Positions 16 through 59,310 of a DNA stretch of 64,000 bases are shown here, piece by piece. Below the pieces are notes generated by a model, which was given only the letters and a program-made list of their open reading frames with translations, had not been told where the DNA came from and made no database searches. The DNA comes from Closterium sp. NIES-65. Lineage: Eukaryota; Streptophyta; Zygnematophyceae; Desmidiales; Closteriaceae. The position numbers and the translations under genes were made by a program. Location of the stretch: NCBI GenBank assembly GCA_948144175.1, contig CANXME010000875.1, positions 248,001-312,000 of the forward strand, read 5' to 3'. Numbering within the stretch: position 1 is the first letter of the stretch; every line of letters begins with the position of its first letter.

Positions 16-145
16 TGTGAAAGTTGTAGAACAGGAATGGTAATGACTAAGTGAAAGTTGGGTACAAATACAAACCCTAGAGAGCTGTACTCCATATGTG
101 CTACCCCACTATAGCCTACAACAGCTATGTCATATATATCTGACA
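16..145 (-). repeat. 3' LTR of element A
   Basis: A 130-bp repeat with TG...CA ends on either strand, identical to 7337-7466. It contains the core shared by this group's LTRs (GTAGGCTATAGTGGGGTAG on the element strand). It is the 3' LTR because the polypurine tract abuts it and the pol stop lies beside it. Confidence 0.95.
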
Positions 146-168
146 CACCCCCACAGGCAAAGTGGGGG
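146..168 (-). promoter_or_regulatory. Polypurine tract of A, within a hairpin
   Basis: On the element strand the sequence GTGGGGGTG lies directly against the 3' LTR and should prime plus-strand DNA synthesis. The window bases CCCCCAC (148-154) and GTGGGGG (162-168) pair as a 7-bp stem around a 7-nt loop, so the tract lies in one hairpin arm. The same arrangement recurs in D, E, F, J and H. Confidence 0.75.
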
Positions 169-358
169 AGAACAAGAGGTCACAAGACCAGTCAAGCAAA
201 ACAAAGCAAAGCAAGCTCAGGGTGGATCACAAAGTCACCACACAGTCCGAGCACAAGAGCAGGGCCAGAGGCCAGTTCACATGCAGGAATACAGACATAT
301 ATATATAAAACTAGACAAGCAAGAGCAGGTATATATATATGTAACAGTACAAGTAAAG

Positions 359-2011
359 TCAAGAGGAGAGCAAGTGAGGCAAGACAGGCCCAAGACCCAG
401 CTGGGTGCAGAAGCGCTGATGGTCACAAGGCGCGAGTGCCTTGGTGAACACATCAGCAGTGTTGGCCTCAGAGGCCACGTTCGCAAGCCGCAACTGTCCA
501 CGCTGCTGTAGCTCACGAGCAAGGAAGTAGCGAAGAGCAATGTGCTTCGTTCTGTGCTCCAGGCGCTGCTCTCGACACAAGGCCAGCATGGCCTTGTTGT
601 CTACGTACAGCACTGGAGGAGAACGAGGCGGCTCTCCAAGGTCAGTCAGCAGGTAGGTGAGCAAGCGAAGCTCCTGTGCAGCCATGGCCCCGGCGTAGAT
701 CTCAGCCTCACAACTGGAGCTGCGAACCGAAGACGAACGAGTAGCCCGCCACGAGACAGAGCCGGAACCAAGGCTGAAGGTGTAACCCTGTGACGACCGC
801 TGCGTAGCCTGGTTGTCAGCCCAAGAAGCGTCAGCGTGGCCTGTAAGGACCACTGGACTCCGCCCTCCAAGCACTAGCCCCATGCCCGACGTACCGCACA
901 GGTAGCGCAATACCCTCTTCGCTGCAGCCATGTGCTCTGGTCGGTGTCTCCCAGGAGCAACATAGCGTGCAAGAATGCTCAGAGGGTATGCAAGTTCAGG
1001 TCGTGTGCACGTCATCAGGTACATGAGGCAGCCAACAAGCTCTGGGTACGGGCCACTCGACTCTACGGACTCATCCGAAGGCAGAGCTGAGAGCGAGTGA
1101 CGAGTAGACAGAGGAGTGGCCTGTGGCGAGGAGTACGTGAAGCCGAAGCGCTGAAGGACCTGCTGCACCATGTGTGACTGAGTCAAGGTAATGGTGCGGC
1201 GTGCTCTGTCCCGGGTGATCTGCAAGCCAAGGTAGCTGCGCAGTTCACCCAGGTCTGTGCACGTGTGTCTCTTCAGCAGCTCGGACTTCACGTAGGCAAG
1301 TCCAGCAGTGTCCGCTGTGGCAAAGACCAAGTCGTCGACGTACACGAGGATGTAGAACGGCGGCAGTGAAGTGTCGGTGCGCAGAAACAGCGACGGGTCA
1401 GCAGTAGAAGGAGCAAACCCAAGAGCCGCAAGCGTAGTCCTCAGTGTGTCGTGCCACTCACGCGGTGCCTGGCGGAGACCGTAGACTGGCCGTCGGAGGC
1501 TCCACTGGGTGCCAGGAGGAAAAGTCCCAGTGAAGCCAGGTGGACGGCACAGCCAGATCTCCTCGTGCAGGCTACCCTGCAGGAACGCAGTGCTGAAGTC
1601 GAGAGAGTGAAGCTCGTAGTCGCGCTGAGCGGCTATGTGCAATAGCACCCGAAGAGTGGTCATCTTCGGGGTGGGAGAGAAGGTCTGAAAGTAGTCTACT
1701 CCCTGCCGCTGACTGAAGCCACGAGCAACGTACCGCGCCTTGAAGACAGGTGGAGAGCCCGGCGGCCGCTTCACCCTGAAGATCCACATGCCACTGACGA
1801 TGTTCGCCCCAGGAGGGGGAAATGCGTCAACGTAGGTGCCTGTGGACTTCCAGGAAGCCATCTTTGCATCCATAGCTGCCTGCCAATGAGAGGAGTAGGG
1901 ACCCTCTACGGCCTCCGCGTAAGAGCGCGGAGTCGGGATGTCTAGTGCATCCGGGTCTCCCTCAGGAGCAAGCAGTACAGACGCGAGATGAGGTGAAGCA
2001 GCCGCCAGACA
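359..2011 (-). CDS. Element A POL, reverse transcriptase and RNase H part
   Basis: This is the 3' part of the copia polyprotein, about 550 codons ending in TGA. It begins directly after an in-frame TAG (2012-2014) and stays in the frame of the upstream segment. The RT domain starts near 1870 with the residues MDAKMASWKS, a family-conserved entry, and carries the catalytic YVDD box at about 1330-1345. RNase H follows with its acidic residues visible: Asp in DASWA (about 828), Glu in EAEIYA (about 700) and Asp in VDNKA (about 600). Products act in cytoplasmic virus-like particles to copy element RNA into cDNA. All visible catalytic residues are intact. With the TAG read through or reverted, this would be a working enzyme region. 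That is an inference. Confidence 0.9.
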   Translation of the reverse strand, partial: CLAAASPHLASVLLAPEGDPDALDIPTPRSYAEAVEGPYSSHWQAAMDAKMASWKSTGTYVDAFPPPGANIVSGMWIFRVKRPPGSPPVFKARYVARGFSQRQGVDYFQTFSPTPKMTTLRVLLHIAAQRDYELHSLDFSTAFLQGSLHEEIWLCRPPGFTGTFPPGTQWSLRRPVYGLRQAPREWHDTLRTTLAALGFAPSTADPSLFLRTDTSLPPFYILVYVDDLVFATADTAGLAYVKSELLKRHTCTDLGELRSYLGLQITRDRARRTITLTQSHMVQQVLQRFGFTYSSPQATPLSTRHSLSALPSDESVESSGPYPELVGCLMYLMTCTRPELAYPLSILARYVAPGRHRPEHMAAAKRVLRYLCGTSGMGLVLGGRSPVVLTGHADASWADNQATQRSSQGYTFSLGSGSVSWRATRSSSVRSSSCEAEIYAGAMAAQELRLLTYLLTDLGEPPRSPPVLYVDNKAMLALCREQRLEHRTKHIALRYFLARELQQRGQLRLANVASEANTADVFTKALAPCDHQRFCTQLGLGPVLPHLLSS

Positions 2012-5000
2012 CTATAACTCCTCCTGCCTGTCCTCTAGGACGTCCGTGCCAAGAGCACACTCACCCCCGACCGACAGAGGACAGACAGACGCAGACTCAG
2101 CAACAAGACTAGCAGCGTAGTCTAGACGACAGCTAGCAGCAAAGTCGACGAGCTCAGCGACAAGAGCAGACGCAGCAGTGGACTCAAAAGAGGGGTCAGT
2201 GACGACAGTAGCAAGCAGACGCATGACAGTAGGACTGGCAGCACGAAGGGAGTCCGACTCAGGGTCGGCAAGTGCAGGAAGAGAGGACTGAGGAGGAGAG
2301 GGCAAAGGGGCACGCAGAGGAGCAGTAGACGGACGCAGAGACATCCGGTGCGTGCCAGGGACAGGAGGAGGACGCTGACGCGAACCGCGACCACTAGCGC
2401 GAGCAGGACGAACAGGCGACGCGGGACGAGACGCAGGCTCACGACGCTCAGCAAGACCTCCAGTAGGACCAGAGTAAGGAGAGGGAGCAGGCAGTGGAGA
2501 GGAAGGCTCCAACAGTGACTGCGACTGGACAGGCTGAGGACACTCTACCGGAGGAGAAAGACCAAGAACCTGCTGCAGGAGCGGAACGAAGTACGGCCGA
2601 GGCCGCGCGGCAACTCCAGACTCAGCAGGGACAGCACCAGCACCCTCAGCGACAGCACCAGCGCCACCAGCACCTCCAGCAGCAGGACCTCCAGCAGCAC
2701 CAGCAGCAGAACCACTGCCAGGACAGACAACAGTAGTCTCTGCACCAACACCCTCAGCAGCTCCAGCTCCAGTAGGACCCGCAGGCCCAGCAGCTCCGGG
2801 ACCGGCAGCACCAGCACCCTCGACGGTTGAAGAAGCTCCAGCTCCAGTAGCACGCCTCCAGCGGCGAGCAAACCACTCGCGCAGCTCCTGTGGAGAGAGG
2901 GGCTCCCGGCGAGACGCAGCAGCAGGAGAAACCCTAGGCTCAGCAGCTCCAGACGCAGCACCCCCAGGCTCAGCAGCTCCAGACTCAGCACCCCCAGGCT
3001 CAGCAGCTCCAGACCCAGCACCCCCTAGCTCAGCAGCTCCAGGCACAGCACCCCCCGGCTCAGCACCCCCAGGCTCAGCACCCTCCGCAGTAGCACCCCC
3101 AGGCCCAGCACCCCCAGGCTCCGCACCCCCAGTAGCAGCACCTCCAGGCTCGGCACCCCTGCGCACAGCACCCCCAGAGTCAGCACCCCCAGGCTCAGCA
3201 CCCGCAGCAGCACCAGAGTCACCAGTAACCTCGGCCGGGTCAACTGCGTCTACCTGGGACACACCTGAGGGGGCAGGAACCTGAGGGGGGAGGGGGTCTA
3301 TCGGGGGGGGAACCGGCACAAGGAAGTCCGGTGGAGGGGGGAGGGAAGGAGTGCGGTAGGGGAAGAGGCGGCAGAAGGGGACTGACTCGTCGAACGTGAC
3401 GTCCTGGGAGGACAGAACACAACGAGAAGAGGGGTGGTAGAACTGCCACCCGGGAGCGTCTGTGGGGAAGCCAAGGAAGACACAGGGAGCAGCACGAGGG
3501 GACAGCTTGTCCGCAGACAAGTCGCGGACAAACGCCCGAGATCCCCAGACACGGAACGCCGACGCATCGCCAACCTTCCCCGTCCACAGCAAGACTGGGG
3601 ACATCGCGGGCCGAGAGACCCGGGGGTGAAGGTTGATCTCATGCGCGGCGTACCGAACCGCAAACGGCCACAGAAAATGGGGGGCAGCCGCATGCACCAT
3701 GGACGTACGGGCGACGTCCATGACAATGCCGATGCGGCGCTCAGCAATCCCATTCTGATGTGGAGAGTCCGGAAGCGTGAATGTCTGGCGGATGCCTCGT
3801 GCCCGACAGTAGGCTCGCAGAAGGCCGGAGGAGAACTCTCCGCCTCTGTCCGAGTGCAGACGCAAAACAGGAAAGTCCGAGCCGAAGCTCCGCCTGAGCT
3901 GGAGACGAGCTGCGCGGATCCAGTCGATCAACACCTCAGTGACCTCACCCTTGCTGCGCAAGGGGAAGACTGTGGTGTAACGCGAGTAGTCGTCAACCAC
4001 CAGCAGGAAGTAGCGCTCGTGACCCTGTCCACCGACGCGGGCTGGGCCCCACACGTCCATGTGAAGCGTCTGCATCGGGGCCTCCGTCGAAGGAAACGGG
4101 GAGGAGTGAGGGGTAGCCCGCAGGCGACCCTCAACACAGGGGACACAGGGAGGGCCAGGCCCCGGAGGAAGGGGAGGGAGGGACCGGGGAAGGCCAGAGA
4201 CAAGAAGGCGAGAGGCCATGCCCCGGAGACGAGGCAGGGAGGGGTGACCCATCCTGTGGTGCCACAGGAGGGTCTCGTGGGACAGGAGGCGACACGAGCA
4301 GGGGGCAGACTCAGGACCAGACCTGGACGCTGCAGCAAACACCTGACCCGACGCAGCTACCTGACCAGACGCAGGAGGAGGAGACGGAACAGTGAGTGTG
4401 TACAGGCTCGACCCCGGCCCACGTGTGAACGTGGTCAAGTGTCGACCCGTGTCCGCGTCCGTGCAGTGGGTGTCCCGTCGGCGCGCAGGGGTGAACTGGT
4501 CAACCCCTGCATCCTGTAGGTCAGCACCCGCCACCAAGTTCGTAGAGAACGAGGGGAGGTAGAGACCGGACAAGACGCCAGACGGGACCGCAGGGCACGG
4601 CAGGACAGTGGAGTAGCGAGCCAGAACAGGACCCCCAGAGGGGTCCGCCAGGGAGACCGCCACTGGCCGACTAAGCGGCGTGAGTGTGGTGCGGTCTCGA
4701 AAGAAGGAGCGAGACGCCCCTGAGTCAAGAGTGAAGGTGAGAGAGGGCGGAGACGTCGCAGTACCTGAGAGAGCAGACTCACCAGCACCTGAGGACACAG
4801 ACTCACTGGCACCTAGAGCAACAGCCTCACCAGCACCTGGAGCAGCAGCCTCAACAGCACCTAGAGCCGCAGTACCAATGCCCGGGTCGGGCGGGAAACA
4901 CCGGTAACAGTCACCCTCCTCACTAATAGTCACAGCATACATGGCAGCAAGAATAGCATCAAAGTCAAGATCAAAGATAGCTACTCCCGCCCTAGACAGC

Positions 5001-5826
5001 TGGTCCCAGCGAGGGATCTCAGAGGCGTCAGGAAACTGGCGGCGCCAAGCGTCAGTCAAGCGGCCGAAGCAACGCTGGGTGGAGTGTGGACCACCACACT
5101 GCTCACCCGCACGGTCGCCAGTGCGCAGGATGTAAGTGCACGGACCAGCACCCCCACCCCGCTGACGTGCAGAGTACCACTCACGGAGCTGCTGCGGGGA
5201 GAGGGTCTCCTGACCACGCTGCTGCTGCTGGCGCTGACCACCACCGGAGCCACTCCTCCTAGACGCGCCACGACCTCCGCCGCCTCCTCCTCCGCCGCCG
5301 CCACCACCTCCGCTGCCACCGCCACTCCCACCGTCGCCGCCGCCACCGCCGCCTCCGCCTCCACCCCCACTACCACCGCCGCTGCCGCCCCCGCCTCCAC
5401 TGCCTCCGCCGACACCTCCACTCCCGCCACCACTCCCGCTACCACCCTCACCTCCTCCGCTGCCTCTACCGCCGCCTCCACCGCCCCCGCCGCCTCCACC
5501 ACCGCCCCTGCCCCCCTTGCTCTTGCCAGAGCGACGTTTCCCGCTAGGGGTAGACGCCGCACCGACCGACTCAAAGCCAACAAGGTCGGCCGTAGCAGCA
5601 GAGGCGACAGAGGGCAGGAGGGGGGAGGGGGAACACCCCTCAAAGATGGGGGTGCGTGGGTCACCACGAGAGGCCCCTACAGCGAGAATGCTCTTCTCGG
5701 CTGCTAGGAGGGACTTCTCAAGGAGCTCGACAGTGAGAGTGGTGGGGCAGACTGCGAGTAGGTCGTCCCTGACTCCGCGAAGGGAGTCAGGGAGGCGGGT
5801 GACAATGTAGTAGAGAGTGAAGTACT
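2012..5826 (-). CDS. Element A GAG C-terminus, protease, integrase and linker
   Basis: A 1291-residue open frame ending at TAG 2012-2014, where sister copies have CAG. In order it holds: the GAG tail; a glycine-rich tract (about 5560-5235); an L-S-P-Q-Q-L-R-E-W module; an atypical Cys/His motif (about 5139-5068, C-X13-C-X3-H-X4-C); aspartic protease with DSGAS (about 4725); the GAG-pre-integrase H/C zinc region (HHRMGH near 4250); and integrase with Asp in HMDVWG, Asp in LHSDRGG and Glu in AERRIG at DD35E spacing. A long low-complexity linker follows, with GAEPG repeats (about 3230-2940), a second L-S-P-Q-E-L-R-E-W module and Pro/Ala-rich sequence before RT. The true start is the GAG ATG at 6299, in another frame because of the homopolymer at 5827-5838. 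Confidence 0.9.
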
Positions 5827-6299
5827 GGGGGGGGGGGGTTCTTAGCGCAGAACTCAGCAGGAAGTGCAGCGCGGAAGCGAGCATCACTAGTGCGCAGGTG
5901 GGTAATGAGGTCGGCTACTGTGGCAAAAGCAGCAAGGTCGGAAAAGAGGTACGGTAGCATGAGGCGGCTCAGTGCAGCAGTGGCAGGGGTGGAGTAGCGT
6001 GCAATAACCGCGTCGTACAAGGTCTGAGCACTCTTGTACGACCCAAAGTGGGCACGCTCAGCGGGAGGGAGGTGGCGACGCACAGCAAGACGTGCAGCAG
6101 CATCGCGTGTGGCCCACTGTGAGCGAACAGTGGCATCCTCAGTAGCAGCAGGGGCGGGAGAGGCACCAGAAGTGAGATCAAAGAGAGAGAGTCCGTCAGC
6201 TCTGACGCACTGTAGGAAAAGCAGTAGGTCGTCTACCCACACGTCAAAGTCGATGGCTCTGCCCTCAGCGTCAAAGGTGAGGACACTGGGGGTAGCCAT
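5827..6299 (-). CDS. Element A GAG N-terminal part
   Basis: Copia GAG/capsid N-terminus starting at ATG 6299 with MATPSVLTFDAEG, the start shared by D and J. It corresponds to the copia GAG capsid domain (residues 1 to about 150), with the conserved stretch TVADLITHLRTS. The frame runs into a 12-base C tract (G on the given strand). Downstream homology continues in another frame, so the tract is off by one base relative to D and J. GAG would assemble the particle and bind element RNA. The frameshift could be a mutation, a sequencing error in a homopolymer, or a slippage site; I favour the first two. Confidence 0.85.
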
Positions 6300-7307
6300 G
6301 ACAGCAGTAGAGAGAGGGCAGTGCGCAGAGTAAAGCTCAGTGCTCACCAGACAGGGCAGTGCAGGGAGGGCTCGGGCGGCTCGGGCGGCTCGGGCGGCTC
6401 GGCGGCTCGACTGCTGGGCGGCTCGGGCGACTCGGCGGCTCGGGCGGCTCGGGCGGCTCGGCTGCTGGGGCGGCTCGGCTGCTGGGGCGGCTCGGCTGCT
6501 GGGGCGGCTCGGCTGCTGGGGCGGCTCGGCTGCTACGGTGGCTCGGCTGCTGGGGCGGCGGGGCCGGGAGATGAGGTGGCGGGGCCGGCAGGGGCAGCAG
6601 CAGGGGCCAGTAGGGGTAGCGGCGGGGCCGGCAGAGGGGACGGCGGAGCCGGTAGAGGGGACGGGGGGGGGGGGGGGGGGGGGGGCCGTCGGGTGCAGCG
6701 GCGGAGCCGGTAGAGGGGACGGCGGGGCCGTCAGGCGCGGCTGCGGGGCCGTCAGAAGGGGACGGCGTGGCCGTCAGAAAGGGACGGCGGAGGGGCCGTC
6801 GGGTGCAGCAGCGGGGCCGGCAGAGGGGACGGCGAAGCCGTTGGGCGCAGCTGCGGGGCCGGCTGGGGCGACGGCGGGGCCGTCCGAGGGGACGGCGGGG
6901 CCGTCAGGTGTAGCGGCGGGGCCGTCAGAGGGGACGGCGGGGCCGTCCGAGGGGACGGCGGGGCCGTCAGGTGCAGCAGCGGGGCCGGCAGAGGGGACGG
7001 TGGGGCCGCGGCTGAGCAGGCGGCAGGGCCGCGTCATAGCGGGCGGCGGGGCCGCGGCTGAGCAGGCGGCGGGGCCGCGTCGTAGCGGGCGGCGGGGCCG
7101 CGGCTGAGCAGGCGGCGGGGCCGCGTCTGAGCGGGCGGCGGGGCCGCGTCGTAGCGGGCGGCGGGGCCGCGTCTGAGCAGGCGGCGGGGCCGCGTCCGAA
7201 ATGGCGGCGTCAGGGCCGCGAGGGAAGGGCGACACGGAGGGTCGCTCGAGCGAGAGGAAAAAAAAAGTGAGCGCGCCTCGGGGTGCGCTTCGGTGGGCCC
7301 TAGGCGA
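6300..7307 (-). other. GC-rich repetitive 5' leader of element A
   Basis: About 1 kb between the primer-binding site and the GAG ATG. It is composed of degenerate short GC-rich repeats of the GGGGCCGTC/GGGGACGGC type, 9-bp GGCTCGGGC-type repeats, and a run of about 23 G at 6663-6685. Open frames on both strands here are compositional. D (15954-16888) and J (40608-41678) have leaders of the same length and style, so it is a family feature, probably the packaging/untranslated leader. Strong RNA structure is expected. Confidence 0.8.
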
Positions 7308-7336
7308 AGTTCCCACAGGGAACCCGCTCTATACCA
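7308..7336 (-). promoter_or_regulatory. Primer-binding site of A with overlapping hairpin
   Basis: On the element strand the sequence TGGTATAGAGCGGGTTCCC starts directly after the 5' LTR. It resembles the initiator-Met tRNA primer site of plant copia elements (TGGTATCAGAGC), allowing small gaps. Its 3' half (GGTTCCC) pairs with GGGAACT just downstream (7308-7314 with 7318-7324, loop of 3 nt). The hairpin is conserved in D and J. Confidence 0.8.
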
Positions 7337-7466
7337 TGTGAAAGTTGTAGAACAGGAATGGTAATGACTAAGTGAAAGTTGGGTACAAATACAAACCCTA
7401 GAGAGCTGTACTCCATATGTGCTACCCCACTATAGCCTACAACAGCTATGTCATATATATCTGACA
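7337..7466 (-). repeat. 5' LTR of element A
   Basis: A 130-bp copy identical to 16-145. In the element orientation this LTR carries the promoter and is followed by the primer-binding site. The right neighbour 7467-7471 (AGCCG) completes the target duplication. Confidence 0.95.
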
Positions 7467-7471
7467 AGCCG
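7467..7471. repeat. Target-site duplication of element A, right copy
   Basis: AGCCG, identical to 11-15. Confidence 0.9.
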
Positions 7472-8709
7472 TGCTCGTCGGGAGCAGCCGCTTTTTCCGC
7501 AGCAACGTCGTGAGTGGGCTGCCCGGTGGGGTGCTACTAATGGAGGTACCTGTGAGTCTACTCCTCCTGGTAGTGCCGCGTGTATACGCGGAGGTTTCGG
7601 AGGTGGACAGCAGCAGCAACAGCGTCCCCTGGAGACTCTCTCCCCGCAGCAGCTTCGTGCGTGGGCTGTCCGGTGGGGCTGCCTTGATGGCGGAGGGTTT
7701 TGGGGTATTCGTACTGGGGGTGTAGAGGCACGTGGTGGCGCAGAGGCTACTAGTCTCGTTGCGTGTGACTTAGCTAGCCTTGCGGTAGAGCCTGAAGAGG
7801 CCTTGCACACTTTTACTCTCGACTCAGGTGCGTCTCGTTGCTTCTTCTGTGACAGCACCATAGTCACACCGCTCACAGTCCTTGTCCCTCTCACACTGGC
7901 CGACCCCTCCGGGGGCCCGGTAGTCGTGCGTGGCGCCACTGTTCTCCCTTGTCCGGCGGGCCCTTCGGGCCTCCTCACAGGTCTCCACCTCCCCTCGTTC
8001 CCTAAGAACTTAGTGGATACCTCTGTCCTCCAGGACCAGTGGGTCATTGTCACCCAGCCTAGAGGCGAGCTAGTGGCAATATGTACTGACTCGCGCACAG
8101 GTGAGCACCTCGCCACGTTCACTCGGAGGCCTTGGTCTGGCCTATATACACTAACCACTGAGTCTACACTAGCAGCTGAGTCAGGTCAGGTAGCTGCGTC
8201 GGTTGAGGTCGTTGCGTCTTGCTTGTGTCGTCTCCTCACGCACCAGACTCTCTTCTAGCACCAACGTCTTGGCCACCCCTCCTTCCCATGCCTTCGAGGC
8301 ATGCACTCCCGTCTCCTTGCCTAGGTCCCTGCTCCCGCTCCCGTTTTTGCTTGCACCGCCGTGTCTTCCTTGCGTCGAGGGGTGCCAGCGTGTCGCTCCT
8401 CACTCCTCCTCGTTTCCTCCTACCACAGCTTCTCTGCAGACCCTCCACATAGACGTGTGGGGTCCAGCCCGAGTCCCTGGACAGGGTGGAGAGCGCTACT
8501 TCTTGCTGGTTGTAGACGACTACACGTGCTACACCACGGTCTTCCCCTTGCAGAGCAAGGCGGAGGTCCGCAGTGTTCTGTTCCGCTGGATCCGTGCTGT
8601 CCGTCGCCAGCTCAGGGCTCGGTTTCAGCAGGACCTCCCGGTCCTGTGACTGCACTCTGACTGAGGTGGTGAGTTTTCCTCCGGTCTCCTCGAGGAGTTC
8701 TGTGGTGCT
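7467..8709 (+). pseudogene. Copia element B: GAG tail, protease, integrase remnant
   Basis: Plus-strand copia remnant into which A inserted. The first open stretch (to the TAG at 8256-8258) encodes two R-(E/A)-W modules, a Gly/Gln-rich segment, and an aspartic protease with DSGASRCFF near 7825, followed by the start of the GAG-pre-integrase region. At 8256-8258 a conserved TGG (Trp) has become TAG. Frameshifts follow, then an integrase core is visible: LHIDVWGPARV (about 8440), VVDDY, and a broken second-Asp region near 8650 with two TGA codons where sister copies have arginine. Homology stops at about 8709. B is related to, but distinct from, the A/D/J group and is clearly dead. Confidence 0.8.
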
Positions 8710-9241
8710 GATCCGTGAAGAAACGCATTCTTCACATCAAGTTGCAGCAAATCCATGACCATAGCTGCCGCGATTCAGAGGAGCACACGGACGGTGGTGT
8801 AGCTGCTAACCGGAGTATAGGTGTCGTCGTAGTCGGTGCCGAAGCGTTGCCACGAGCCTGGCCTTGTATTTCTCCAAGGCACCGTCAGGTCGCAGCTTCT
8901 TCTTCAGCGGCCACTTGACGCCGACACTTTTGCGACCTTCGGGGAGGTCAGCCAACATCCAAGTGCCTTGCTCATCAAGGTTCTCCATCTCCTCCTTCAT
9001 TGCCGCCCAACATTCCTTTCCTTCAAGTCCGGACAACGCAGCTGCCAGGTCGAGGATGACACCTCCCCAAGCGCCTTCCCCCTCATTCTCGTCCAGGTAC
9101 TCCACATCGTCATCGCTGTCCGTGTCGCAATCATCCTCAGCAAGGTATGCCATGTCGTACGCATTGTCCTCATCGTCCGCATCCTAGGCCGTCATGGCTG
9201 ATGGTTGAAACCGTACGGGTGGCACCCCCTTGTTAGGCCTG
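8710..9241 (-). pseudogene. Fragment G: RT N-terminus of a different copia lineage
   Basis: A minus-strand frame at 9153-8806 begins with an acidic stretch. It then shows the classic copia RT entry: W-x-A-M-x-E-E-M near CWAAMKEEM, a GTWMLADLP segment, VKWPLKKKLRPDG, and YKARLVA. After a small frameshift the RT continues toward 8716 with TDYDDTYTPV and LQLDVKNAFLHG. The sequence differs clearly from the A/D/J RT, so it is another lineage. No LTR, primer site or target duplication is visible. Both edges are abrupt junctions to B (left) and C (right). Confidence 0.75.
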
Positions 9242-13775: not shown

Positions 13776-13909
13776 TAACGAGTACCTAGAGCAGCAGCCT
13801 CACCAGCACCTGGGGCAACAGACACTCTAGCACCTAAGCGACAGCCTCACAAGTACCTAGAGCAGTAAACTGGATACCGAGGTCAGGCGGCACACACAGG
13901 TGACAGGCA

Positions 13910-47600: not shown

Positions 47601-47785
47601 GCTTGCTTGTACTGTCACATATATATACTCTTGCGCTTGCTTACTTAGCCTCTTATATATATATGTGCTCCTGTATGTGAACTGGCCTTCTGGCCTTGAA
47701 CTTGTGCTCGGAATGTGTGGTGACTTTGTGATCCACCCTGGGCTTTGCTTTGCTTTGCTTGACTGGTCTTGTGACCCCTTGTTCT

Positions 47786-47808
47786 CCCCCACTTTGCCTA
47801 AGGGGGTG
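47786..47808 (+). promoter_or_regulatory. Polypurine tract of J with hairpin
   Basis: AAGGGGGTG directly before the 3' LTR; CCCCC (47786-47790) faces GGGGG (47802-47806). Confidence 0.65.
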
Positions 47809-47930
47809 TGTCAGATTATAATGTTGTGTAGGCTATAGTGGGGTAGCTCATATGGGGTACACATTTCTAGGGTGGCATATTTGTATCACTTCCATTCCAT
47901 AGTCATTCCATTCTCGTTCTTATGTCCTTA
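47809..47930 (+). repeat. 3' LTR of element J
   Basis: 122 bp, about 93% identical to 40456-40577; the last bases are TTA instead of TCA. Confidence 0.95.
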
Positions 47931-50704: not shown

Positions 50705-50841
50705 TAAGAGACGTCGCGTTTGCACCTAGGGTTTCGATATGCTGTTGCATATGTGTCTCGGCTGAACCATCGTGTAGGGGCTATCACATCGTGTCTCGGC
50801 TGAACCAAACCGACCGTCCTACCTGCCTGCCTGCTGCTCCC

Positions 50842-51314
50842 ATGGCTAGTCCTCCGGTGCTAGTTTTCAATGCTGAGGGCCGCCCAGTGAAGTTCGACAC
50901 CTGGCTAGATGACCTGCACCTCTTCCTACAGCTCACTGCCAAGGAGGACATCTCACTGTACGATCACGCCCTAGGCCATACCCCTGCCCCTGCTGCTACT
51001 GCTGACAGCACTGCTCGCTCACAGTGGCAGACTCGTGATGCCCACGCTCGCTTCGCTATTCACAACTCCCTACTGATAAACGAACGCGAGCACTTTGGCC
51101 AGCACAAGACTGCACAAGCACTGTACACAGCTGTCGTTGCTCGCTACTCCTCACCTGCCTCCGCCGCGCTAGGCCGTCTCTCCCTCCCCTACCTGTTTCC
51201 CGACCTGGCCTCGTTCCACACAGTCGCTGACCTCATCACGCACCTCCGTACTAGTGAGGCCCGCTTCCGTGCCGCCATGCCCGCTGAGTTCTTTGCCACG
51301 CACCCCCCCCCCTA
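50842..51314 (+). CDS. Element H GAG N-terminal part
   Basis: Starts at ATG 50842 with MASPPVLVFNAEGRP, homologous to the A/D/J GAG start but clearly diverged. It includes SQWQTRDAHARFAIH, YSSPASAALGRLSLPYLFPD and TVADLITHLRTS. It runs into a tract of 10 C (51303-51312), after which homology (LWLTLYHLVTRLPD) continues in another frame, so the tract is off by one as in A. The likely role is the capsid part of GAG. Confidence 0.8.
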
Positions 51315-52979
51315 CTCTGGCTCACTCTCTACCACCTAGTCACCCGCCTCCCTGACACACAGCGTGCTGTCAGGGACCACTTCCTAGCTCGCTGCCCCAC
51401 TGAGCTCACCATTGCCCTCCTCGAGAAGGAACTACTTGCAGCTGAGACTAGCATAGTCGCTGTAGGTGCCTCTCGTGGTGACCCCCGTACCCCGTTCTTT
51501 GAGGGGTGTTCTCCTTCCCCCCTTCTTCCCTCTGTCGCCTCTGCTGCTGCTGTCGACCTCCTTGGTGCTGAGAAGGTCGGTACTGCGTCTGCTTCGAGCG
51601 GGCGCCGCAGCGGCAAGGGCAAAGGGGGCAAGGGTGGTGGCGCTGACGGCGGGGGAGGTGGTCGTGGGGACGGTGGAGGCGGTCGGGGTGGTGGCGCGAC
51701 TGGAGGGGCTAGTGGCAGCGGTGGGGGTGGTGGCGGCAGCGGCGGGGGAGGTGGCAGGGGCGGAGGCGGTGGTTGGGGTGGCGGTGGACGAGGCGGCGGC
51801 AGGGGTTGGGGTGGTCGAGGAGGTGGCGGTGGTGGTCGTGGAGGCGCTGACGTTCACTAGGGCCAGCAGCACACTCCGTCGCCCCAGGAGGTCCGTGAGT
51901 GGTACTCTCTGCACGGGGGGGGGGGGGGGGGGGGGGGGGGGGGTGGCCTTAGCTGCACGTACGTCATTCGCATTGGTGACCGCACTGGTCAACAGTGTGG
52001 ACGACCACACGCCACACAGTGCTGCTTCGCTCGTCTCGATGACGCTTGGCGTGTTCAGTTCCCTCAGGCCACTGAGCTGCCCCACTGGATTGATCTCTTG
52101 AAGAAGGGGATTGATATCTATGCTCTAGACTTTGATGCTATTCTATCTGCTATGTATGTGATGTCTACTAGTGGAGAGGGTGCTGAGTACATGTGTGTGC
52201 CGCCTGACCCGGGCATTAGGACTAGTGCATCTAACGCTCTAGGAACTCGCGTGTCAGCTACCCCAGGTGCTGGTGAGGCAGCTGCTCTAGGTGCTTGTGC
52301 GTCTGCCCCCTTTGGTACTGAGTCGACTGCAGCACTACACACCTTCACACTGGACTCAGGTGCTTCTCGCTGCTTCTTTCGTGACCGCACTGCCCTTGAG
52401 CCGCTTGCTCGGCCAGTTGCTGTCTCCCTTGCTGACCCCTCTGGGGGTCCGGTCATTGCGACCTCTTCCACTGTCCTTCCCTGCCCTGCGGTCCCGTCGG
52501 GCACACTGTCAGGTCCCCACCTCCCCTCGTTCTCTACAAACTTGGTGGCAGGATGTGCGCTCCAGGACGGGGGTGTTCACCAGTTCACCCCTGCCTACGA
52601 GCGCGTGACACACTGTACGTGTGCTCGTACGGGCCGTCACTTGGCTACCTTCACTCGGCAGCCGGGGTCGGACCTGTACACACTGACTACTGAGTCCCCT
52701 CAGGTTGCTGCGTCTGCGTCTACGTCCGCGTCAGGTCAGCTGTCGGCCCCCTGCTCGTGTCGCTCTCTGGCACACGAGAGTGTCCTCTGGCACCACCGCC
52801 TTGGCCACCCGTCTGTGCAGCGGCTTCGTGCCATGCACTCCCGGTACCTTGTCTCTGGCCTGCCCAGGGTCCTTCCTCCCCTCCCACCCTCACCTGCTCC
52901 TACCTGTCTCCCCTGTGTCAAGGGACGGCAGCGCGCCGCTCCTCACTCCTCCTCGTTTCCCCCGACGACTGCTCCCTTA
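51315..52979 (+). CDS. Element H GAG C-terminus and protease
   Basis: One frame from 51315, broken only by TAG 51858-51860. It holds LWLTLYHLVTRLPD, FEGCSPSPLLPS, a glycine tract (about 51600-51855), an R-E-W-Y module, a 29-base G run (51915-51943) that stays in frame, and the Cys/His motif C-X13-C-X3-H-X4-C (about 51955-52025). Protease follows with LDSGASRCFFRD near 52350, then the GAG-pre-integrase region with WHHRLGHPS near 52790. It ends at TAG 52980-52982, CAG in sister copies. Confidence 0.85.
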
Positions 52980-52982
52980 TAG

Positions 52983-53606
52983 ATGCTCCACATGGACGTG
53001 TGGGGCCCAGCCCGCGTTCATGGTCAGGGTCAGGAGAGGTACTTCCTGATAGTTGTTGACGACTACTCGCGCTACACGTTGGTCTTCCCCTTGCGCACGA
53101 AGGGTGAGGTGCGTGATGTCTTGATCCCTTGGATCCGCAGAGCCCGCCTCCAGCTCAGCGAGCGTTTCCACTCGGACATTCCAGTCCTACGCTTGCACTC
53201 TGACAGAGGTGGTGAGTTCTCCTCCGACCTCTTGGCGGCCTACTGTGCTGAGCACGGCATTGAGCAGCCGTTCATGCTTCCGGCCTCTCCACAACAGAAT
53301 GGGGTTGCCGAGCGCCGCATTGGCCTGGTCATGGAGGTGGCCCGTAACTCCTTGATCCATGCGGCTGCCCCCCACTTCTTGTGGTCGTTTGCGGTCCGGT
53401 ACGCTGCGCATCAGCTCAACCTCTGGCCCCGTGTCTCCTTGCCGGAGACCTCGCCCACACTACTGTGGACAAGGGAGGTTGACGATGCGTCGTGTTTCCG
53501 GGTCTGGGGATCTCGATCTTTTGTCCGCGATACGTCTGCGCACAAGCTCTCCTCCCGCGCTGTTCCCTGCGTCTTCCTCGGCGTTGTCCCGGACGCGTCT
53601 GGTTGG
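52983..53606 (+). CDS. Element H integrase core
   Basis: Same frame, ending at TAG 53607-53609 (CAG in sisters), with TAA and another TAG soon after. The catalytic Asp in HMDVWGPARV (about 52992), Asp in LHSDRGGEF (about 53202) and Glu in GVAERRIG (about 53310) are intact with 35 residues between the last two. The C-terminal landmarks VWGSRSFVRD and CVFLGVVPDASGW are present. Confidence 0.9.
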
Positions 53607-53609
53607 TAG

Positions 53610-55240
53610 TTTTAACACGCCACCTCGCGCCGAGTCTTGCCCTCTTAGGACGTCACTTTTGACGAGTCCGTCCCCATACTACCGCCTCTTCCCCTACCAC
53701 ACCGCCCCTTTCCCCCCCCCTCGCCTCTCTTCCTCGCGCCAGGTGCTACTGTTGTAGACCTCCTCCCCCCTCAGGGTGCTGCTCCCTCAGGTGTGTCTCA
53801 GGTAGACCCCGGTGAGCGTGTTGAGGTAGCTGTCGACTCTCTTCCTGCTGGGGGTGCTGAGCCTGGGGGTGCTGAGCCTGGGGGTGCCAAGCCTGGGGGT
53901 GCCGGGACTGGGGGTGCTGAGCCTGGGGGTGCGGAGCCTGGGGGTGCGGAGCCTGGGGGTGCTGGGCCTGGGGGTGCTGAGCTTCGGGGTGCTGAGCAGC
54001 AGAGTCCAGCGTCTGTGGGTTCTGAGTCTGGAGGTACTGAGCCTGGGAGTCCTACACCTGGGGGAGCCCTCTCCTCGGAGCAGCTGCGTGAGTGGTACTT
54101 ATAGTACTGCATCCTCAGGAGAGGCACCTCTGGAGCCGAGCGTGCTACTGGGACTGGTGCTAGTACTTCTACTCCTAGCCGGGAGCTCCCCTCCCGTGAG
54201 CGGATCCGTGAGTGGTACGAGCGGCGCTGTACTCTTCGGAGTGGCGCGCCTCGTGTCGCGGACCCCGCTGCTGTTGGTGCTACTGCTGGTGCTGCGGACC
54301 CAGGTGTTGGAGCTGCTGCTGGTGCTGAGGACCCGGGTGGTGGAGCTGCTGCTGGTGCTGTGGACCCGGGCGTTGGAGCTGCTGCTGGTGCTGAGGACCC
54401 GGGTGTTGGAGCTGCTGCTAGTGCTGCGGACCCGGGCGTTGGAGCTGCTGCTGGTGCTGGGAACCGGATGTTGGAGCTGCTGCTGGTGCTGAGGACCCTG
54501 GTTCGGGTGTCTCTGCTGGTTCTGGTGTCACTGCACGGCCGCGGCCGTACTTCGTTCCGCTCCTTCAGCAGGTTCTTGGTTCGCTCCCTCCTCCGTGTCC
54601 TCCTCCCTCCTCAGGGTGTCCTCCGCCTGCCCAGCTGCCGTTGCAGCTACCGTCTGCCTCCTCTCTCCCTGGTCCTGCACCTTACACTGGTCCGACTGGA
54701 GGTCTTACTGAGCGTCATGAGTGTGAGTCTTGTCCTGCGTTGCCTATCCGTGCTGCTCTCACTCGTAGTCGTGTCCACCGTCAGCGTCTTCCTGCTGTCC
54801 AAGGCACTCACCGGATGGCGCTTCGTCCATCCACTGCTCGACAGCCTGTCCCACTGCCGTCTCCTCCTGCTTCCTCTCTTCCTGCTCTTGCTGACCCTGG
54901 GTCAGACTCCCTTCGTGCTGCCAGTCCTACTGTCACGCGTCTCCTGGCTACTGTTGTCACTGACCCTTCCTTTGAGTCCGCTGCTGCGTCTGCCTTAGTT
55001 GCTGACCTTGTCGACTTTGCTGCCACCTGACATCTAGACTACGCTGCTAGCCTAGTTGCTGAGTCTGAGTCTGTCTGTCCTCCGTCCGTCAGGGGTGAGT
55101 GTGCTATTGGCACTAACGTCCTTGAGGACAGGCAGGAGGAGTTTGATTACTTTGCTGCCGCTTTGCCCCATCTCGTGTCCATGCTTGTTGCCCCTGAGGG
55201 AGACCCGGATGCACCAGACATCCCGACCCCACGCTCTTAC
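53610..55240 (+). pseudogene. Element H integrase-RT linker
   Basis: After a one-base insertion near 53680 comes a GAEPG array (about 53850-53995), then LSSEQLREWYL followed by TAG near 54103 (also present in C), a further I-R-E-W-Y module near 54210, and an 11-residue DPGVGAAAGAE-type array (about 54290-54470). RPRPYFVPLLQQVLG-like sequence lies near 54540, then the Pro/Ser part. A TGA near 55027 replaces a conserved Cys codon. Confidence 0.65.
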
Positions 55241-56800
55241 GCAAAGGCGATGGCTGGTCCCTACTCCTCTCAGTGGCAGTCGGCCATGGACACGAAGATG
55301 GCTTCCTGGAAGTCCACACGCACCTACGTCGACGAGGTTCCCCCGCCTGGGGCGAACATCGTCAGTGGCATGTGGATTTTCAGGGTGAAGCGGCCGCCGG
55401 GCTCTCCGCCTATTTTCAAGGCGCGTTACGTTGCACGAGGCTTCAGTCAGCGAGAGGGAGTTGACTTCTTCCAAACCTTCTCCCCGACCCCGAAGATGAC
55501 CACTCTTCGGGTTCTGGTGCACGTCGCCGCTCAGCGTGATTACGAGCTCCACTCGCTTGACTTCAGTACTGCTTTCCTACAGGGCAGCCTGCACGAGGAG
55601 ATCTGGCTGCGCCGTCCACCTTGCTTCACTGGGTCGTTCCCTCCTGGTACCCAGTGGAGCCTCCGACGGCCAGTCTACAGTCTCCGCCAGGCGCCACGTG
55701 AGTGGCACAACACACTGAGGACTACACTTGCGGCTCTTGGGTTCGCGCCTTCTACTGCTGACCCGTCGCTGTTTCTACGCACCGACACCTCTCTGCCGCC
55801 GTTCTACATCCTCGTGTACGTTGACGACTTGGTCTTTGCCACTGCTGACACTGTGGCACTCGCCCATGTGAAGTCGGAGCTGTAGAAGAGACACACGTGC
55901 ACAGACCTGGGTGAACTGACAAGCTATCTTGGCTTGCGGATCACCCGGGACAGAGCACGCCGCACCATCACCTTGACTCAGTCACACATGGTGCAGCAGG
56001 TCCTTCAGCGCTTCCGCTTCACGTACTCCTCGCCTCAGCCCACTCCTCTGCCTACCGGTCACTCGCTCTCAGCTGTGCCTTCGGATGAGTCGGTAGAGCC
56101 GAGTGGCCCATATCCAGAGCTTGTGGGTTGCCTCATGTACCTGATGACCTGCACTCGTCCTGACCTTGCGTACCCTCTTGGCATTCTTGCACGCTATGTC
56201 GCTCCCGGCCGTCACCGGAAGGAGCACATGGATGCAGCTAAGAGGGTGTTGCGCTAGTTGTGCAGTACGTCAGGCATGAGGCTAGTGCTTGGAGGGCGAG
56301 TCCAAGTTGTTCTCACTGGACACTCAGACGCTTCTTGGGCAGACGACCAGGCTACTCAGCGGTCGTCTCAGGGTTACTCCTTCAGTCTTGGCTCTGGTTC
56401 AGTTTTTTGGCGTTCTACTCGCTCTTCTTCTGTTCTCAGCTCCGGTTGTGAGGTTGAGATCTACGCCACAGCCATGGCGGCTGAGGAGCTACGCTGGCTC
56501 GCCTACTTGCTGACCGACCTTGAAAAGCAGCCTCGTTCTCCTCCAGTGCTATACGTCGACAACAAGGCAGCCATTGCCTAGTGTCAGGAGCACAGACTAG
56601 AGCACAGAACGAAGCACATTGCTCTGCGCTACTTCCTTGCTCGAGAGCTGCAGCAGCGTGGTCAGCTTCGCCTGCGTTACGTGGCCTTTGAGGCCAACAC
56701 TGCTGATGTGTTCACCAAGGCGCTTCAGCCTTGTGACCATCAGCGCTTTTGCACTCTTCTAGGCCTTGTGCCTACTGTACCTCACTTGCTTACTTCTTGA
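55241..56800 (+). pseudogene. Element H RT and RNase H
   Basis: RT entry is near 55285. YVDD lies near 55817-55828. TAG 55883-55885 (CAG), TAG 56255-56257 (TAC) and TAG 56579-56581 (TTG) interrupt one otherwise open frame. RNase H shows GHSDASWADD (about 56325), EVEIYATAM with catalytic Glu (about 56455) and VDNKAAIA (about 56555), and ends at TGA 56798-56800. Confidence 0.8.
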
Positions 56801-57014
56801 GTCTGTTTGTACTGTGATCTCTATATATATATATACCTGCATGTCTACTCTTGCTAGGTTGTGATCATTGTACCTCTTGTTCTATTATAAACCTGCATGT
56901 GAACTGGTCTTGTGACCACTTGCTTGTGCTTGGAATTTGTGTGGTATCCTTGAGATCGACCCTGAGCTTGTTTTGCCTTGCTTTGCCTTGACTGGTCTTG
57001 TGACCCCTAGCTCT

Positions 57015-57036
57015 CCCCACTTTGCCTATGGGGGTG
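57015..57036 (+). promoter_or_regulatory. Polypurine tract of H with hairpin
   Basis: TGGGGGTG lies before the LTR; CCCCA (57015-57019) can pair with TGGGG (57029-57033). Confidence 0.6.
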
Positions 57037-57173
57037 TGTCAAACATTATATATGTTGTTGTGTTTGTTTTGGCTACAGTGGGTTAGCCTATAGGGGGTAC
57101 ACGATTCTAGGGTTAGGTACTTTTACTGTTTTCACTACTAGTCCATTCATTCCTGTTCTGTTATTCTAATACA
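57037..57173 (+). repeat. 3' LTR of element H
   Basis: About 137 bp from TGTCAAAC to a likely end at TAATACA. It contains the family LTR core in diverged form (GGCTACAGTGGGTTAGCC). The exact right end is uncertain because the 5' LTR is missing. Confidence 0.75.
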
Positions 57174-57229
57174 CGCTTCATCCATGCTTACACTCGCTAA
57201 TTTTGCTATTCTGTTGCGTCTGTTTTCAG

Positions 57230-58631
57230 CCCAAACAGGCAAAACTGGAGATCACCCGATGAAGTTGCGATGACCCGGGCGATAGGGGAGGCTTATACTA
57301 CCAATGCTACGTTTTCGCGAGGAGGGACGGCAGCATCTGGAGGTGAATGACGAGCTTCAACTGAAGGCTGACGACCAGGAAAAGCATAACGTGGAGCTTC
57401 GTAAGCAGCTTGAGAAGAGGGACGCGGATCTGAAGGATGCATTGGCGCTGTTCAAGCATCTGGCGGAGAAAATTGCCGATGATTAGCTCGCCAAAGTGAA
57501 TTTGCGGGTGAGTATTGCCCTCTGTTTTGCCGTCTGCGCTGTTTACAAACAGTCACTACTGCGATGTGATTTTTTAATTTCAGGTCCACATCAAGGAGTC
57601 GTGCGACGACTTCCTTTTCAAGCCGGATACGCTCAACTTGTCACCCGATCCTGATGCGATGCTCGCAGCTTTAATCAGTAAGTGACGGTCAGAAACTGTC
57701 GCGTTCGTTTTTCATTGTTTTTTACTTCCTCGTCGTCATTGTGTTTTGTGCAGAGAAAGCTAGTTACAGCGCTGACTCCCCTCAGGGCTTGAAGCTCGCT
57801 GCCTTGCTGAAGGTCAATGGCATTTTGAAGCACGCGTGTGTGCGCTTCAACGACCGGATCGGTAAAATCTACCGATTCTATCACCTTTATGCTCTGAGCC
57901 TAGAACCATGCGTTTTTATGGAGAGGAAGCGGAACTTCAAGGGAGAGCTAACCTTGCAGGTGCCTGAGGACTTACTCACGAAATGTGTTGACTACGTTGA
58001 GCGTTTCGCCGACTGTAAGTCATTGAGGTTTTTTTTTATCGGTTGCATTAAGTGGGTTTCGGGATTAACGTGGCATGTTCTGATGTATGTTTTGGCCCGT
58101 TGCAGAGCTCTTAGGGATTCTCTGGCACGTCAACAGGAGAGGCAGTCCGTTTTCCAGCCCTGCCTTCGTTAAGTGTGCTTCTCTGTGGCATTTGAGTGGC
58201 GCCTTGCCAATTGGTTTATTTCCTGTTCAGCTGCTTGTCATCCTTGCAGCGGTAAGTTTAACATGAGCACTTTATTTGCCTTTCACATTGTGCAATTTAA
58301 CAAGTGTTGATTGCTTTTCTTCGTGCAGGTGAGGTTCAAGTTCCGCCATCCCAGCGCCACGAAGGCTCAGTTGGATCGGTCGGGGGATCCTGGTGCTCTT
58401 GCCAGGCAGGCGCGGGTTGTACAACGCTGGATCAACAGCAGTGACGTCACTCGCACGGACGACTGCCTTGGGATCAGCAAGGTCTGCATCGTTGGTTGGA
58501 AGGATATTCCAGAGGAGGAGCTGGTTGCAGAGGAGCATGGTGACCTTGGTCTGGATGAGCTAGTGAGCGAGCCAGGCTCGCAGGAGCGGGTTTATGATGA
58601 GAATGAAGAGCCGGAGGAGCTTTACGGGTGA
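57230..58631 (+). pseudogene. Unrecognised multi-exon gene remnant
   Basis: A series of exons with clear splice signals. An acceptor TTTTCAG ends at 57229. A first exon to 57507 has frame breaks and a coiled-coil-like region (57304-57483, rich in Glu/Lys/Leu, for example KRDADLKDALALFKHL) followed by TAG 57484-57486. The intron 57508-57583 precedes an exon 57584-57677, the intron 57678-57753 precedes an exon from 57754 to about 58014 (SPQGLKLAALLKVNG, RIGKIYRFYHLYALSLEP), a further exon begins near 58106, and the last exon runs from about 58330 to TGA 58629-58631 with an acidic end. I do not recognise the family. It could be the distal part of a gene split by element H, or part of another transposon. 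Confidence 0.5.
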
Positions 58632-59310
58632 CCTGTAGTACCTGTGGTAGCTTAGGGCTGTTTTTGTAGGTGTATATGAGTTTGTAGCTAATGGTAGTTC
58701 TTGGATTTGTATCTATGTAAGCTTTTGACCTTTTTAGTGTATTGTCTTCTCTATTTGTTATAATGTAGAATTGTAGGCTATACTGAATTTCTAAAAATAT
58801 CGGTAATTGTTTAGTCACTATCTCTTTATTTTGCTTGTTTACTGTATCTTTACTGTACCTATTGACATTCATGTTTTTGAGACTCGATGTGTTCATCCCT
58901 CCTTAGTATCACGTTTTAAATAACGGGGAAACAAATGTAGGATTAAATGAATGAGACCGAAAGACTTATAACGAGTTTCCTCTTCTAAACGAGTGCGCGT
59001 CGGAATGTATTTGGACGGTCCGGCAGCCAATAGAAACAAAGTTGCAACAAATTGTCACGCGCCAGGTGTCCTGTGCGTGTTCGCTAAAATTTCCCGAACC
59101 AGCTCGGAGGGCTTGGGAGAAATTCTCTGCACCAGTCGATCTCTACTTGTCAGATGTATCGGAAACCAATCGCAATTCGCGGGAAAACGCCAGGAGTCGA
59201 AAACCACTCGGCAACAACTCGTTCCCAACAAGTTTCCCACACCCCCCAAATTGGCGATGGACGGGGAGGGAGGGGGTGCGAGGGGGACTGAAGGAGCCGC
59301 TTCTACATCC
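58632..59310. other. Unique DNA, no recognised gene
   Basis: AT-rich 3'-flank-like DNA to about 58970, then mixed sequence. A plus-strand frame near 58993-59280 has normal composition at its start but no known motif. Confidence 0.35.

Follow-up and report, generated by a model that had tools for sequence, protein, structure and literature searches.

C-to-T decay at CHG sites in transposons is already known, for example from wheat. In the wheat study, transition rates served as a proxy for methylation, CG and CHG were methylated above CHH, and LTR retrotransposons, with LTR pairs among the material, showed C-to-T decay at CG and CHG, as do the elements described here (PMC2996936). In contrast to the wheat elements, the LTR pairs analysed here changed more often at CHG than at CG (p=0.005). 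For the enzymes, two further sources describe that CMT3/ZMET2 prefers CWG (PMC9256654) and that the residues for CHG recognition are conserved across streptophytes, including charophytes (PMC11540031); this preference corresponds to the motif avoided in a second copia group of the Closterium genome. For ONSEN/ATCOPIA78 of Arabidopsis, the description is taken to mean that the element has fewer CHG sites, and it is discussed there as a competition between CMT2 and CMT3 (PMC8376061), whereas three diverged subfamilies of the second copia group have almost no CWG along 4.2 kb.

In Klebsormidium nitens, KnitGypsy-Dnmt3 is described as a Ty3/gypsy-type element with a Dnmt3-like methyltransferase, like two elements of Closterium, L030 and L034 (PMC5890265). 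In total, three PF00145 loci were read out of 123 scored matches (L029, L030 and L034); all three are Ty3/gypsy-like, and no chromomethylase gene was found among them. As in Dnmt3-bearing Ty3/gypsy elements, a Dnmt3-type C5-methyltransferase was found to share one ORF with a protease and a reverse transcriptase (RT). L034 matched Pfam DNA_methylase and, weakly, an aspartyl protease, with RT-like residues in the same frame identified by eye, and the best PDB match of L030 was DNMT3A (E 6.5e-9). Unlike in KnitGypsy-Dnmt3, motif IV of the putative methyltransferase reads GWECQGYS, and the enzyme of L030 and L034 is predicted from sequence.

A decayed Ty1/copia family in the window

The window, a 64-kb stretch of the genome of Closterium sp. 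NIES-65, contains about ten diverged Ty1/copia copies, with the following features:

13..7466, minus strand: copia copy A; LTR pair 13-145 / 7334-7466 with 1 difference; in-frame TAG at 2014-2012
359..361, minus strand: pol terminal TGA; TGA in 7/7 copies alignable there (A, D, J, H, F, N, C1)
7419..9230, plus strand: diverged copia fragment B, about 71-77% identity to its six alignable copies
9230..13909, minus strand: copia fragment C2; TAG at 13777, 12817, 12700, 10575 and 10230
13908..15794, minus strand: copia 3' fragment C1; TGG-to-TAG at 15741
15795..23131, plus strand: copia copy D; LTR pair 15795-15923 / 23003-23131 with 4 differences, one of them CAG/TAG; TAG at 18128, 19136 and 19802
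23132..25492, minus strand: copia fragment E; TAA at 25302
31530..36190, minus strand: copia fragment F; TAG at 35854, 33530, 33358, 33346, 33023 and 32792
36461..38875, plus strand: copia 3' fragment N; TAG at 37311, TAA at 37263
40453..47928, plus strand: copia copy J; LTR pair 40453-40575 / 47806-47928 with 8 differences; 11 in-frame TAG
50841..57180, plus strand: copia copy H; 6 in-frame TAG

Read across the aligned copies, the domain order is that of Ty1/copia elements, namely gag-pre-integrase, integrase and an RVT_2-type RT. Gag_pre-integrs was identified in 18263-19135 and rve with SH3 domains in 19148-19801 (both in copy D), and RVT_2 in 362-1873 (copy A) and 46104-46823 (copy J). Copies A, D and J are flanked by LTR pairs. 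The 5' LTR is followed by TGGTATCGAGC in D and J and by TGGTATAGAGC in A, which we take to be a tRNA-type primer site.

In the codon-aligned table of ten copies, 44 in-frame stops were identified, 34 TAG, 6 TGA and 4 TAA. The consensus residue was Gln at 22 of the TAG positions and W, Y, L, E, R, A or P at the other 12. This agrees with the original prediction, made from the sequence, that the stops are overwhelmingly TAG at Gln (CAG) positions, with TGA and TAA being few. Among the 25 coordinates given there, 24 read TAG on the strand of the element and one, 37312, was off by one (TAG at 37311-37313). The roughly twenty proposed CAG-to-TAG changes were all found in frame (20/20), with Gln as the commonest residue among the other copies or, at 41937, tied for it, and the CAG/TAG difference in the LTR pair of copy D was verified. 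Four of the five proposed TGG-to-TAG changes stand in the table, the fifth (8256, in copy B) lying outside it. Further stops are CAG-to-TAG at 47038 in J and 33358 in F, and CAG-to-TAA at 37263 in N. These stops reflect the decay of old Ty1/copia copies.

TAG is dominant mainly because the Gln codon of the family is nearly always CAG (361 CAG and 8 CAA among the majority codons). When copy B is excluded and only those codons are used for which three or more copies align and the majority codon reaches 60% (9262 codons), a flat C-to-T rate predicts 26.2 TAG, 10.1 TGA and 4.4 TAA, compared with 27, 3 and 4 observed. Since a flat rate already yields the TAG counts, the TAG skew alone is weak evidence for CHG, and the claim rests on the context rates. 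In the same subset, TGG changed to TAG four times and to TGA once, an excess in the direction that would be expected if the G in CHG context is hit.

It was also considered that the host might read UAG as Gln, so that the apparent stops would be sense codons. This would fit the pol terminal TGA of all seven aligned copies and the fact that non-sister copies share TAG in 5 Gln columns where 1.96 would be expected (P=0.016). TAG was also identified in 7 of 97 HSP70 matches, all of them partial (8 TAG), but TGA occurs in 7 and TAA in 2 as well. However, at 17 loci of the second copia group TAG closes pol, at a single conserved end of the protein and close before the polypurine tract, showing that UAG is used as a terminator. 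All seven near-full-length HSP70 matches are without an internal stop, in-frame UAG included, the two of these that were read contain 18 CAG, 4-5 CAA and 0 TAG, and three HSP70 ends are TAA. Together with the 12 of 34 window TAG at non-Gln residues, this led us to reject the reassignment, which is extremely improbable.

C-to-T changes by sequence context

C-to-T changes were counted per context and normalised by the number of sites, fragment B being excluded from the substitution counts; the rate at CHG was above that at CHH for the window family as well as for LTR pairs. In the window family, 82/2018 CHG and 84/5818 CHH sites were changed, with a ratio of 2.45 (1.95-3.11, block bootstrap), and the seven highest of the 16 contexts comprised all four CG and all three CHG contexts. 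Transversions were also raised at CHG (OR 1.89), with a Ts:Tv not significantly different from CHH. Counted on trees of 500-column blocks, the terminal branches gave an OR of 2.46 for CHG against CHH with a similar Ts/Tv (1.50 and 1.57), an equality to which misaligned tandem-repeat blocks may contribute, and CHG was not significantly above CHH on the internal branches (20/1794 vs 25/3468, p=0.16); both results count against deamination at CHG. Masking of low complexity increased the OR up to 6.07, with CHG transversions still high (Ts:Tv p=0.14). The raised transversions imply that the window family by itself does not isolate deamination, for which LTR pairs are better suited.

The LTR-pair set is non-coding and consists of 18 pairs, 3 from the window and 15 from other parts of the 874-Mb genome. 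The latter derive from 20 fetched loci, of which L013, L018 and L021 showed no pair, and L015 and L028, with repeats of about 90-93%, were excluded because their LTR pairing was not clear. An earlier count that included two mispaired elements (84 and 116 differences) is superseded by this set. C-to-T changes were found at 15/525 CHG, 17/2618 CHH and 10/1089 CG sites (CHG vs CHH, p=6e-5), and transversions at CHG in 0/525. In these pairs, CG was not significantly above CHH (p=0.40), and a CG rate near that of CHH would be unusual for a methylome of plant type. Across the retrotransposons analysed, C-to-T is concentrated at CHG and not at CHH, and in the window family and internal sequence at CG too.

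These rates bear on plain C-to-T decay, in which CAG is simply the commonest codon one transition from a stop and context is irrelevant. It holds for most of the TAG skew, where the flat model comes close to the observed counts, but its context part is contradicted by the CHG excess in the LTR pairs as well as in the window family, and as a full explanation it is improbable. The original prediction had suggested deamination of methylated CHG as the source of the skew; the enrichment of CHG over CHH supports this in part, whereas the predominance of TAG goes back mostly to the CAG-rich codon pool.

Another possible source of the changes is a RIP-like or APOBEC-like process, CpA-biased or acting on one strand, instead of methyl-deamination. 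CAG fits CpA, and in the window family the CA class (68/2430) exceeds the CT class (44/2742). A mild sense-strand excess was present in this family (plus-strand OR 1.31, z 2.63; at CHG 29/342 on the plus and 12/298 on the minus strand), which counts against symmetric deamination, by which it is not predicted; the 16-context table showed little strand bias. However, CTG and CCG were raised like CAG in the window family and CAA and CAT were not, the LTR pairs showed higher rates at CTG (6/142) and CCG (7/245) than at CAA (2/440), and C-to-T was not CpA-specific as in fungal RIP. In 67 Gln columns with 441 cells, 346 CAG, 19 TAG, 17 CAA, 1 TAA and 58 other codons were found, so that CAG-to-TAG and CAG-to-CAA occurred in like numbers (19 vs 17 in these columns, 17 vs 14 of 361). 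Strand-specific editing was rejected on this near equality, and a RIP-like or APOBEC-like origin is very unlikely.

The preferred reading is that the host would methylate symmetric CHG cytosines in silenced retrotransposons, by a chromomethylase that may be CMT3-like. Deamination of 5-methylcytosine to T would then turn CAG into TAG when one strand is hit and into CAA when the opposite strand is hit.

CWG in the body of a second copia group

In the second copia group, CAG/CTG is almost absent from the 4.2-kb internal region, with 1 site against 141.4 expected in L016, 7 against 135.9 in L025 and 5 against 163.0 in L009. No other strand-collapsed trinucleotide fell below an O/E of 0.35 in these three. 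The near-absence holds in every reading frame, CG is kept, and 19 of the 20 fetched loci contain a CWG-free stretch; within the window, none was found except repeats at 28001-29000. L016 shares 70% of its residues with L009 and 56% with L025, about 0.6 of the four-fold sites differ, and all three subfamilies are without CWG at near-saturated synonymous divergence. No relative was identified when viral contigs were scanned for the RT of this group. In searches of an open-access collection, in which most subscription papers are absent, no title or beginning of an abstract reported a CWG-free transposon.

In 100 synonymous shuffles of L016, cross-codon CWG had a mean of 60.7 and a minimum of 48, compared with 1 observed. 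The same test showed no CWG deficit in one HSP70, two window-family and three methyltransferase-gypsy ORFs or in L028. Simple codon bias was tested in this way and rejected. In L016 and L025, the third base of NCN codons before G was T in 3, A in 1, G in 120 and C in 69 cases, and of those not before G it was G in 181, C in 117, A in 111 and T in 114. Codon usage and deamination products alone do not explain the absence of CWG.

The CWG-free state might have arisen by mutation alone, with sites deaminated and never returned, at no advantage to the element. The deamination products CAA, CTA and TTG are over-represented (the TTG excess in L025 is slight), and the frequency spectrum gives no sign of short-term selection, with CWG-creating variants being 16/130 of the singletons and 3/49 of the shared variants (p=0.29), or 10/111 and 3/32 without L018 (p=1). 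However, CWG is also gone where deamination would be missense, the codons before G having shifted to NCG and NCC; mutation alone is therefore insufficient. Of 104 private changes, 13 create new CWG sites where 9.1 would be expected, which is close to the neutral rate, yet none of 20 CWG-creating positions was common to all 11 copies, and the absence extends over three subfamilies at near-saturated four-fold divergence. This origin is unlikely. Private C-to-T in the CWG-free bodies was raised at CG (37/6747, compared with 24/12573 at CHH) but not at CCG (2/1367), the latter counting against the CHG reading.

A different double-strand recogniser of CWG, like a nuclease, a binding factor or the gypsy Dnmt3-like enzyme, might also drive the avoidance. 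The two motifs CAG and CTG are reverse complements and are lost jointly, which points to recognition at the DNA level, and methyltransferase-bearing elements are present in the genome. On the other hand, the LTRs of the CWG-free group retain CWG (5-14 in those counted), which a nuclease would presumably not spare, and we regard such a recogniser as rather improbable. Because the LTRs retain CWG, an escape would concern the body.

We infer that the absence of CWG in the second group reflects selection to escape CHG methylation. Copies with CWG in the transcribed body would be subject to silencing through CHG methylation and have fewer descendants, and the successful lineages would be those purged of CWG. 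The whole account, decay by CHG deamination together with CWG purging under selection by CHG silencing, is probably correct, judged from the sequence patterns. For the more specific proposal of a retrotransposon lineage invisible to CHG methylation through a CWG-purged body, kept by selection over the long term, through composition alone and without an anti-silencing protein, while a co-resident CWG-rich copia family is scarred, the chances appear evenly balanced. If confirmed, the near-absence of CAG and CTG in the second group would mean that CHG methylation acts strongly enough to shape the whole coding sequence of a genome parasite, and it makes testable whether CHG methylation of the body limits retrotransposition.

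In-frame stops in the copia family of the window

The window, located in an assembly of 874 Mb and 2400 contigs, contains one Ty1/copia-like family represented by ten diverged copies or fragments, with pairwise identities mostly of 80-93% and copy B more distant. The domains of the family (gag_pre-integrs, integrase and RVT_2) are consistent with copia, and LTR pairs are retained in copies A, D and J, with 1, 4 and 8 differences, respectively. Other elements were also identified in the window:

49526-50218 and 50329-51339, + strand: fragments of a Plavaka-type transposase (Pfam PF18759), the second ORF continuing into the copia gag of copy H
61238-63998, + strand: a different copia-type element with Retrotran_gag_2-like (below the Pfam cut-off) and rve domains, truncated by the window end

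A codon-aligned table of the family contained 44 in-frame stops, 34 of them TAG, with 6 TGA and 4 TAA, in agreement with the TAG predominance seen originally by eye. The TAG codons are located at Gln in 22 cases and at other residues in 12. All 20 CAG-to-TAG sites of the original prediction were recovered, one being corrected from 37312 to 37311, as were four of its five TGG-to-TAG sites; the fifth, 8256, lies outside the coverage of the table. For modelling, 9262 codons were used, each covered by three or more aligned copies and having a majority codon at the 60% level, copy B being excluded. Here, 27 TAG, 3 TGA and 4 TAA were observed, compared to 26.2, 10.1 and 4.4 expected under a flat rate and 29.6, 8.3 and 4.2 under a context model. 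Since the flat model already yields the observed number of TAG codons, the skew is mainly a product of the CAG-rich codon pool, in which the majority Gln codons are CAG in 361 cases and CAA in 8. In 67 Gln columns (441 cells), 19 TAG and 17 CAA were counted; cytosines on the two strands, the C itself and the one paired with G, decay alike, as predicted by symmetric methylation of CWG (CAG/CTG). TAG was present in two copies at the same Gln column in five columns, where 1.96 such columns would be expected (P=0.016), which is a modest indication of hot sites.

It had also been considered that UAG is read as Gln in the host, by which the stops of the window would be sense codons. Internal stops do occur in 15 of the 97 HSP70 matches listed (8 TAG, 7 TGA, 2 TAA); all of these matches are partial, and the stops probably represent exon ends or pseudogenes. 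However, all seven near-full-length HSP70 matches are free of internal stops, two HSP70 ORFs contained 18 CAG, 4-5 CAA and no TAG, and the HSP70 ends examined use TGA in four cases and TAA in three. Further, at 17 loci of a second copia group elsewhere in the genome, pol has TAG as its terminator, at a single conserved protein end shortly upstream of the polypurine tract. A reading of UAG as Gln is thereby ruled out.

Cytosine decay in the CHG context

Deamination of methylated cytosine in the CHG context had been proposed as the origin of the stops. In the window family, C-to-T changes at sites where the other copies are unanimous amounted to 69/1405 in CG, 82/2018 in CHG and 84/5818 in CHH. 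The seven contexts with the highest rates were the four CG and the three CHG contexts. When a 75% majority of copies was required instead, the CHG/CHH ratio was 2.45 (block bootstrap 1.95-3.11), and logistic regression with terms for codon position, copy, strand and next base gave an odds ratio (OR) of 3.05 for CHG. Transversions at CHG were likewise elevated (OR 1.89), and in a tree-based count Ts/Tv was equal between CHG and CHH. A mild sense-strand excess was observed (OR 1.31); in a separate count, CHG changes were 29/342 on the + strand and 12/298 on the - strand. Given the age of these copies and their partly coding content, deamination cannot be isolated from the window by itself.

The cleanest support for CHG-context decay was obtained from LTR pairs, in which differences are post-insertion and non-coding. 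In 15 second-group elements and the three window pairs, C-to-T changes were 15/525 in CHG (CCG 7/245, CTG 6/142, CAG 2/138), 17/2618 in CHH and 10/1089 in CG, with 0/525 transversions at CHG. CHG differed from CHH (p=6e-5) and from CG (p=0.005), while CG showed no significant rise over CHH in these 18 pairs (p=0.40), which would be unexpected under plant-like methylation. The excess at CHG on which the deamination reading depends was thus found, while the TAG predominance is owed mainly to the codon pool.

Copia elements devoid of CWG

In the second copia group, a CWG-free stretch was identified in 19 of 20 loci, the exception being L028. These loci were the 19 best RVT_2 matches and the 28th (L028), a small sample skewed to the best-scoring copies (70,632 loose candidates, 150 scored). 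CAG and CTG are nearly absent across all frames: L016 contains 1 (141.4 expected), L025 contains 7 (135.9 expected) and L009 contains 5 (163.0 expected). All 28 Gln codons of L016 are CAA. Every other strand-collapsed trinucleotide has an observed/expected ratio (O/E) of at least 0.35 in these three elements. CG is retained, at 95-102 per kb in four elements, with an O/E of 1.18 in L016, 1.00 in L009 and 1.19 in L025. The group is thus opposite in composition to the window-family ORFs in L017 (949 codons) and L024 (940 codons), which are CG-poor (O/E 0.68-0.69) and CA/TG-rich.

Cross-codon CWG occurs once in L016, compared to a mean of 60.7 and a minimum of 48 in 100 synonymous shuffles; by shuffling, no deficit was found in one HSP70, two window-family and three methyltransferase-bearing Ty3/gypsy ORFs or in L028. 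In L016 and L025, NCN codons preceding G end in G or C in 189/193 cases, while A, C, G and T are all freely used when G does not follow. Deamination at these sites before G would be missense, which indicates that CWG was removed by synonymous choice and not by mutation alone. The CWG-free sequence occurs in three far-diverged subfamilies: of its residues, L016 has 70% in common with L009 and 56% with L025, and it differs from these two at 0.59 and 0.61 of four-fold sites. The state has therefore been maintained and not simply inherited.

Among 11 near-identical copies of the group, 13/104 private changes create CWG (9.1 expected), so new sites do arise; of 20 CWG positions, 16 are private, 4 shared and none common to all. 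The frequency-spectrum test for selection in these copies was null (CWG-creating 16/130 singletons, 3/49 shared, p=0.29; p=1 without L018). Selection against CWG, which appears probable, is therefore argued from the absence of the sites over the long term and from the choice of bases at codon boundaries, not from a within-family signal. In the same copies, C-to-T was elevated at CG (37/6747, CHH 24/12573, p=6.5e-5); CCG showed no such rise (2/1367).

In four elements, the CWG-free interval starts close to the primer site and reaches as far as the 3' LTR, and the LTRs of the group still contain 5-14 CWG. In the 615-bp LTRs (L016, L012, L020, L023, L009, L014) these are concentrated 3', near a TATA-like motif and downstream of it, and the first 330 bases hold no more than two. 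L024 and L025 have 537-bp LTRs, with 5-6 of 9 CWG in the 3' part and 3-4 in the 5' part. The CWG-free zone may correspond to the transcribed body, with the start region excluded. Among L009-L027, the primer-binding site after the 5' LTR is TGGTATGAGAGC in L012, L016, L017 and L019, and TGGTATCAGAGC, which includes a CAG, in L010, L011, L014, L020 and L022; the latter is also present in L024-L027, shifted one base inward.

Methyltransferases and a proposed effect on element survival

The PF00145 profile gave 123 scored genome matches, many within long ORFs. Three loci were examined, each a Ty3/gypsy-like element with a Dnmt3-like C5 methyltransferase:

L030:967-2796
L034:262-3213
L029

In all three, the Dnmt3-like domain is located between protease and reverse transcriptase. 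Motif IV of this methyltransferase is GWECQGYS, without the Pro-Cys that the motif usually contains.

Ty3/gypsy elements of the charophyte K. nitens are described to encode a Dnmt3, and its CG, CHG and CHH methylation to resemble that of land plants (PMC5890265). Plant chromomethylase favours CWG (PMC9256654), with recognition residues conserved among streptophytes, charophytes included (PMC11540031); CHG decay is already established for wheat TEs, including LTRs (PMC2996936), and in ONSEN the CHG context is reported to be below that of average TEs (PMC8376061). In an open-access collection of papers, searched at title and abstract level, no report of a CWG-free element was found.

We infer that a chromomethylase-like enzyme would deposit CHG methylation, by which copia bodies would be silenced. 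Copies bearing CWG, like the window family, would be methylated, silenced and then scarred, and lineages devoid of CWG, like the second group, would stay transcribed and multiply, which would be the benefit to the element.
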